Part shown: positions 37,309 through 38,359 of the stretch, piece by piece
How positions within the stretch are numbered: the first letter of the stretch is position 1
Layout: every line of letters starts with the position of its first letter
Source: Deltaproteobacteria bacterium
Lineage (GTDB): Bacteria; Desulfobacterota; Deferrimicrobia; Deferrimicrobiales; Deferrimicrobiaceae
Assembly (NCBI GenBank): GCA_003105225.1
Contig: PQAK01000064.1
Coordinates: 1-39,912, forward strand
DNA length: 39,912 nt
Reading direction: 5' to 3'
The notes under the pieces: model-generated
Database searches by the model: none
The model's input: the letters and a program-made list of their open reading frames with translations, nothing else
What the model was told of the DNA's origin: nothing
Made by a program: the position numbers and the translations under genes

Positions 37309-37992
37309 ATGGACCCACCACGGTCATCGGTGGCGCTCTTCGGGGGGACGTACGACCCGTTCCACAACGGCCACCTGCGCATGGCGGTCGAGGTCAAGGA
37401 GGCGCTCGGCATCTCCCGGTTGACCCTGTTTCCCGCGCTCCATCCGCCCCACAAGCCGAAGCGGCCGGTGACCGAAGCGCGGCACCGGCTCGCGATGGTC
37501 GCGGCGGGGGCGGCCGGCCTCCCCGGGATCGACGTTTCCGACATCGAGATCCGCCGGGAGGGTCCCTCCTACTCTCTTCTCACCGTCCTGGACTTCCGGA
37601 GGGAGCTGCCCGACGCCCGGATCCTGTTCGTCATGGGCGCCGACTCCTTTGCCGATGTGTCCTCCTGGCATCGATACGGCGAGCTCCTCCTGTCGTGCGA
37701 TTTCATCCTCCTCCCCCGGTCGGGCGTCGACCCGGAACCCGCTCCCCCGAAGGGCGTGCATATTGAAAAAGAGGAGCCGCATTGCTATAGTTGGATGGGG
37801 AAAAGCTACCGCCTCCCGGGCGGGCGACGGCTGTTCTGCCCGTCGCTGCCGGCCCTGGACATCTCCTCGAGCGCCATCCGCGAGAAAGTCCGGAAGGGCA
37901 AATGCATCCGGGGGCTCGTCCCGCCGGAAGTGGAGCGGTACATATCCGACCATGGTCTCTACCTTGACCGCGCGGAGGAGCAACGGCCATAA
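37309..37992 (+). CDS. nadD: Nicotinate-nucleotide adenylyltransferase
   Basis: The 227-residue protein has the nucleotidyltransferase motif FGGTYDPFHNGH near residue 11, PPHKPKRPVT, MGADSF and the C-terminal SSSAIREKV. It adenylylates nicotinic acid mononucleotide in NAD synthesis. ATG 37309 directly follows the proA stop. The stop TAA overlaps the apparent ATA start of rsfS. Confidence 0.94.
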   Translation: MDPPRSSVALFGGTYDPFHNGHLRMAVEVKEALGISRLTLFPALHPPHKPKRPVTEARHRLAMVAAGAAGLPGIDVSDIEIRREGPSYSLLTVLDFRRELPDARILFVMGADSFADVSSWHRYGELLLSCDFILLPRSGVDPEPAPPKGVHIEKEEPHCYSWMGKSYRLPGGRRLFCPSLPALDISSSAIREKVRKGKCIRGLVPPEVERYISDHGLYLDRAEEQRP

Positions 37993-38330
37993 CGACGCAG
38001 GAGACGCTGCTGCGGTGCGCGCGGCTGGCCCAGGAAAAGAAGGCCGCCGACATCCGCGCGCTCGACGTCCGGGAACGCGCCACCTTCACCGACTTCTTCC
38101 TGCTGTGTTCGGGGACGTCCGACCGGCAGGTTTCGGCCGTGGCCCATCATATCGAGGAGTCGCTCCGCAAGGAGGGCCTGCGGCCGCTGGGGATCGAGGG
38201 GATCCGGGAAGGACGGTGGGTCCTCCTCGATTACGGCGATTTCGTGGTGCATGTGTTTCTTTCGAGCGTTCGGGAATTCTACAATTTCGATCGGCTGTGG
38301 GGATCGGCGCCGGAGATCCCCCTCCCCTGA
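37989..38330 (+). CDS. rsfS: Ribosomal silencing factor RsfS, apparent ATA start
   Basis: The frame gives 113 residues with the RsfS/Iojap pattern: AQEKKAADIRALDVRE, TFTDFFLLCSGTSDRQV, VAHHIEESLRKEGLRPLG, REGRWVLLDYGDFVVHVF and FYNFDRLW. RsfS binds L14 and blocks subunit joining in starvation. The first ATG in frame (38139) lies in mid-domain. A stop at 37965-37967 limits upstream extension. Between them no ATG, GTG or TTG fits; ATA at 37989, preceded by GGAGGAG (37974-37980) and overlapping the nadD stop as ATAA, is the best start. A sequencing error (ATG to ATA) is the main alternative. Confidence 0.87.
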   Translation: MTTQETLLRCARLAQEKKAADIRALDVRERATFTDFFLLCSGTSDRQVSAVAHHIEESLRKEGLRPLGIEGIREGRWVLLDYGDFVVHVFLSSVREFYNFDRLWGSAPEIPLP

Positions 38331-38359
38331 AGGACCGATAACCACGGAGGAGCCTGCGC

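Follow-up and report, generated by a model that had tools for sequence, protein, structure and literature searches.

An AUA or AUC codon as the probable, conserved start of rsfS in the Deferrimicrobiaceae

To our knowledge, ordinary bacterial genes do not start at AUA or AUC; such starts are very rare in bacteria, and those known to be conserved serve regulation. The closest described system is infC, the gene of IF3, which starts at AUU, AUA or AUC; its autoregulation by IF3 is established for Escherichia coli, as cited in PMC13009471, and in Staphylococcus aureus it starts at AUA (PMC13009471). The AUA and AUU starts of S. aureus yield approximately 10-30% of the expression obtained with AUG and are modulated by IF3 (PMC13009471), and the same work presents ccpN of S. 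aureus and Bacillus subtilis (AUA) and cvfC1 of S. aureus (AUU) as conserved AUH starts with an extended Shine-Dalgarno (SD) sequence and with expression at about 10-30% of AUG. In a reconstituted system, IF3 was observed to favour strong codon-anticodon pairing at the third base (PMC10158994). RsfS is described in PMC7125091 as binding uL14 on the large subunit and blocking joining, and in E. coli without RimM, IF3 and RsfS rise together (PMC13246957).

In this study, the rsfS gene of a deltaproteobacterial genome of the family Deferrimicrobiaceae was investigated within a stretch of 39,912 nucleotides, hereafter the window (contig PQAK01000064.1 of assembly GCA_003105225.1). The gene resembles infC in combining an AUH start and a strong SD with a product that is a ribosome anti-association factor, and AUC or AUU starts of infC in this family stand alongside the AUA or AUC of rsfS. 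It differs from infC in encoding the large-subunit silencing factor, and control by IF3, established for E. coli infC, is putative for rsfS. In comparison with ccpN and cvfC1, the gene and the phylum are other ones, and the third base of the family rsfS start alternates between A and C. The rsfS of E. coli (ybeB) is the same gene and likewise has a weak non-AUG start, read as TTG in its sequence and reported as UUG (PMC10917681); UUG is a standard minor start, unlike the AUA and AUC of the family. We found no earlier report of a conserved AUA/AUC start of rsfS in the literature searched; the kind of start is known from infC and ccpN, and judged by this literature rsfS is a new conserved case with AUA/AUC. 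The features of the locus are as follows.

37309-37992, + strand: nadD, nicotinate-nucleotide adenylyltransferase (TIGR00482, 158.9 bits)
37965-37967, + strand: in-frame TGA of the rsfS frame, which excludes any start farther upstream
37974-37980, + strand: rsfS Shine-Dalgarno sequence GGAGGAG, within the 3' end of nadD, with 8 nt separating its last G from the ATA
37989-37991, + strand: proposed rsfS start codon AUA, from family conservation and the register with solved RsfS proteins
37989-38331, + strand: rsfS, 113 aa if AUA is the start, stop TGA at 38329-38331
38139-38141, + strand: GTG, the first in-frame standard start of the rsfS frame, inside the RsfS domain and not credible as a start

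The product scored above the curated cut-offs of the RsfS/YbeB/Iojap family, both for PF02410 (111.8 bits against 21.6; match at 38016-38300) and for TIGR00090, rsfS_iojap_ybeB (114.2 bits against 56.9). The RsfS domain is therefore intact upstream of 38139, as originally predicted, and the first standard codon there, which had been called ATG, is a GTG; it was rejected as the start because strongly conserved residues of the domain precede it. After the TGA at 37965-37967, the frame reads CCG CGC GGA GGA GCA ACG GCC ATA ACG ACG CAG GAG ACG CTG CTG CGG TGC, with no ATG, GTG or TTG between 37968 and about 38016, and since the TGA closes the frame on one side and the PF02410 match begins at 38016 on the other, the start must fall between these two points. 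This interval harbors an AUH codon at the proper distance from an SD with no AUG, GUG or UUG available, which is the arrangement of infC-type starts. Two further details of the original prediction held as well: GGAGGAG precedes the ATA at a normal distance, with a spacing that is fixed across the family, and the ATA overlaps the nadD stop TAA (37990-37992) as ATAA, by 4 nt.

Conservation was examined in the window genome, in the only other species of its genus among the genomes available and in another 22 species from the family, comprising 11 genera in all; among the genomes examined this family makes up the whole order, and an order-level search gave the same 24 genomes. The rsfS start column held ATA or ATC in 22 of the 23 other genomes, and hence in 23 of 24 with the window, so that the non-AUG identity typical of infC-like starts is retained throughout the 11 genera. 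The third base was A in 13 and C in 10 of these 23 genomes and never G or T. In a gapless alignment of the 23 genomes on the ATH codon, from which one locus with a repeat insertion (L006) was left out, A and T occupied positions 0 and 1 in all sequences, and the SD columns were G at -12 and -11 (23/23), A at -13 (22/23) and G at -14 (20/23). Two genomes of genus g6 (L007 and L009) carry an ATA two codons farther upstream, with the overlap ATAG. On the NadD plus RsfS tree, the ATA and ATC states require at least 3-4 changes, and the A-to-G transition that would give AUG was seen only at the repeat insertion of L006. In the single-contig relative G004, ATA makes up 1.9% of the isoleucine codons, or 1 per 1000 codons; set against so rare a use in coding sequence, the ATA or ATC of 22 of 23 other genomes at the rsfS start is not due to chance. 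As the changes at the third base run between A and C and do not lead from A to G, we infer that AUG is selected against.

The sole ATG, in L006 (genome G013), is found where a repeat of about 170 bp joins the locus. This repeat (L006:690-868) is MITE-like and was inserted directly after the old rsfS ATA, and rsfS there would use the junction ATG; on reading of the sequence, the insert also carries an in-frame TGA just 5' of that ATG. The same repeat matched 55 places in genome G010 and 11 in the genome of the window.

Other start positions were considered across the family. Eight genomes, namely that of the window and those of L015, L016, L018, L019, L020, L024 and L025, leave no choice but a non-standard start, as they have an in-frame stop 3-8 codons upstream and lack any standard start ahead of the conserved core. 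Some room for doubt is left by L017 and L021, in which an ATG and a TTG, respectively, stand three codons upstream of the AUH, and by L023, with an ATG 13 codons upstream and without an SD; the codons of L017 and L021 are badly spaced because they immediately adjoin the SD. Many of the ATA genomes have a GTG or TTG 29-68 codons upstream, within nadD, and these are excluded only by analogy with the genomes having a nearby stop. With ATA taken as residue 1, the product falls into exact register with solved RsfS proteins (residues 3-112 to 3-112 of 2o5a; 12-108 for 9q40, 16-104 for 30qz, 3-108 for 6sj6 and 13-106 for 2id1), and most Desulfuromonadales loci display a TTG start in the same column as the ATA/ATC of the family. 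The invariant AT, the fixed SD spacing, this register and the exclusion of standard starts agree with the start originally proposed for the window, and we regard initiation of rsfS at AUA/AUC as very probable; its place, non-AUG identity and conservation are established by comparison of the sequences.

In most ATA genomes, the nadD stop overlaps the rsfS start as ATAA or ATAG, with TAA or TAG running from +1. The ATC genomes have it upstream at -9, -8 or -21, or downstream at +19 or +112, and the ATA genome L023 has it at +11, with no ATAA overlap. Given these genomes, the overlap was rejected as the cause of the ATA, and on the sequences compared it is incidental to the AUA start. The nadD stop still falls within about 20 nt of the rsfS start in most genomes, which makes translational coupling of rsfS to nadD likely from the arrangement of the two genes.

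Genes in 1.2 Mb of G004 were called with a simple program of our own, trained on ORFs with an ATG and an SD. For the 1128 genes screened, the chosen starts were ATG in 785, GTG in 241 and TTG in 102, and rsfS ranked first of all 1128 for a best non-standard start that beats any standard one. The same scoring picked up infC, our positive control, as a gene with a non-standard start; across the family, infC begins with ATC, once with ATT (L129), after AAGGAGG in nearly all readable genomes (L129-L150), and in L148 and L150 an in-frame stop lies only a few codons upstream. Standard starts were found in the neighbouring genes of rsfS, namely nadD (24/24 family genomes) and the downstream TPR gene (22/22). 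A tRNA scan of the same 1.2 Mb, which is about half of the G004 genome, disclosed one tRNA with a CAT anticodon and none with TAT. The screen also flagged prfB, which was set aside as the programmed frameshift of RF2 on reading of its sequence.

Several other accounts of the ATA were weighed. The window contig comes from a draft of 221 contigs with 89.5% completeness, and the ATA could be an ATG read or assembled wrongly, in an ordinary ATGA-like overlap; comparison of position 37991 among relatives, suggested by the original prediction, answers this doubt, since the sister species and 21 other separately assembled family genomes, 22 in all, also show ATA or ATC with no G, and the error reading is already refuted, leaving it next to no probability. 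Initiation downstream, at CTG 38010 or ACG 37992/37995, with the ATA as mere upstream sequence, could appeal to the plausible SD AGGAG (37999-38003) spaced 6 nt from the CTG. In the 23 genomes, however, the 38010 column varies among ATC, CTC, CTG, GTC, ACG and CTT, and that of 37992 among ACC, ACG, GCG, GAT, GGG, GAA and others, against the invariant AT[A/C]; a start at 38010 would also cost 7 residues relative to the solved proteins, and these codons were rejected as very improbable starts. The 4-nt overlap of nadD and rsfS in the ATA genomes might suggest a NadD-RsfS fusion made by frameshifting or readthrough, with no start needed at all, yet the position of the nadD stop ranges from -21 to +112 nt among the relatives and takes every one of the three frames relative to rsfS, and several genomes have an in-frame stop just 5' of rsfS; the fusion was rejected on the varying frames and is considered extremely improbable. 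It might also be that the clade initiates loosely on many codons and that rsfS is nothing special, as pth in part of the family has a conserved ACG and no standard start and infC uses AUC. Against this, a non-standard start was favoured by more than 25 score units in only 3 genes of the G004 screen, and by more than 10 in only 5, with rsfS at the top, and we hold loose initiation to be very unlikely.

As for the meaning of the AUA start, a strong SD inside the end of nadD would position the ribosome at AUA 37989, where the initiator fMet-tRNA (CAU) would pair with a mismatch at the third base. Selection would keep this start weak, the relatives swapping AUA and AUC without drifting to AUG, and the weak codon may hold the synthesis of RsfS low and responsive to the level of free IF3, as for infC. 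Excess IF3 would lead to rejection of AUH starts; a shortage of IF3, or its retention on immature 30S subunits, would permit synthesis of IF3 and RsfS alike, each the anti-association factor of one subunit. That the weakness of the start is selected appears likely to us, and the explanation as a whole, an AUA start at 37989 kept weak by selection with low RsfS and a response to IF3, we favour with slightly less assurance. The retention of AUA/AUC throughout the family, with AUG avoided, suggests that the amount of RsfS is set at initiation and that its output is deliberately held low or tied to IF3. IF3-dependent control, which the original prediction reasonably raised, is plausible by analogy with infC, and the AUC/AUU starts of infC in the same genomes are consistent with it; we place IF3-responsive control of rsfS slightly short of an even chance. 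A weak start that is real and unrelated to IF3, being a fixed low level or one tolerated through reinitiation after nadD, is a serious contender, though somewhat below even: the closeness of the nadD stop in most genomes makes coupling likely, and weak starts of other kinds (UUG, GUG) occur in many rsfS genes elsewhere. Coupling alone, however, does not account for the failure of AUG to reappear at a codon whose third base switches between A and C, and in L022 the nadD stop lies 112 nt downstream of the rsfS start, which is still AUC. We rate the IF3-linked reading as only marginally more likely than a simple low setting or a coupling to nadD in which IF3 has no part. Should the link to IF3 hold, it would offer a simple connection between two anti-association factors whose joint increase in E. 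coli was recently reported (PMC13246957). A broader proposal, that RsfS and IF3 are tied at initiation by shared starts discriminated by IF3 (AUA/AUC in rsfS, AUC/AUU in infC and perhaps ACG in pth), with a fall in free IF3 raising both, and that this is why weak rsfS starts (AUA, AUC, CUG, ACG, UUG) evolved repeatedly, seems to us rather unlikely. For annotation, gene finders limited to ATG, GTG and TTG will miss or truncate rsfS in this family.

Outside the family, 81 distinct rsfS loci of the same phylum were collected and their starts chosen automatically, giving ATG in 49, TTG in 17, GTG in 5 and none in 10. On inspection, two of these ten (L255 and L309) had an ATG farther upstream, and L258 has an ATG right after its stop. 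Loci without any standard start include L122 and L295, with CTG after GGAGG or GGAG, L291, with ACG after AAAGGAG, and L063, with CTG after a good SD. Among the loci inspected, rsfS thus frequently has a weak start.

Two other genes displayed unusual start regions. In G004, an lnt-like gene (apolipoprotein N-acyltransferase, as judged from sequence only; C1:417450-418991, - strand, within L172) lacked a usable standard start in the screen and carries an ACG preceded by GGAGGAG. The pth gene (peptidyl-tRNA hydrolase) has no ATG, GTG or TTG from its in-frame stop to the GLGNPG motif in L232, L235 and L237-L241 (genomes G014, G021, G023, G020, G015, G009 and G022). All seven share an ACG five codons ahead of this motif, with AAGGAG or a GGAG-like sequence upstream in most, and it is a possible start of pth in these genera. 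Most of the other genera have a GTG or TTG some 20 codons upstream, within the end of rplY, which may act as the start.
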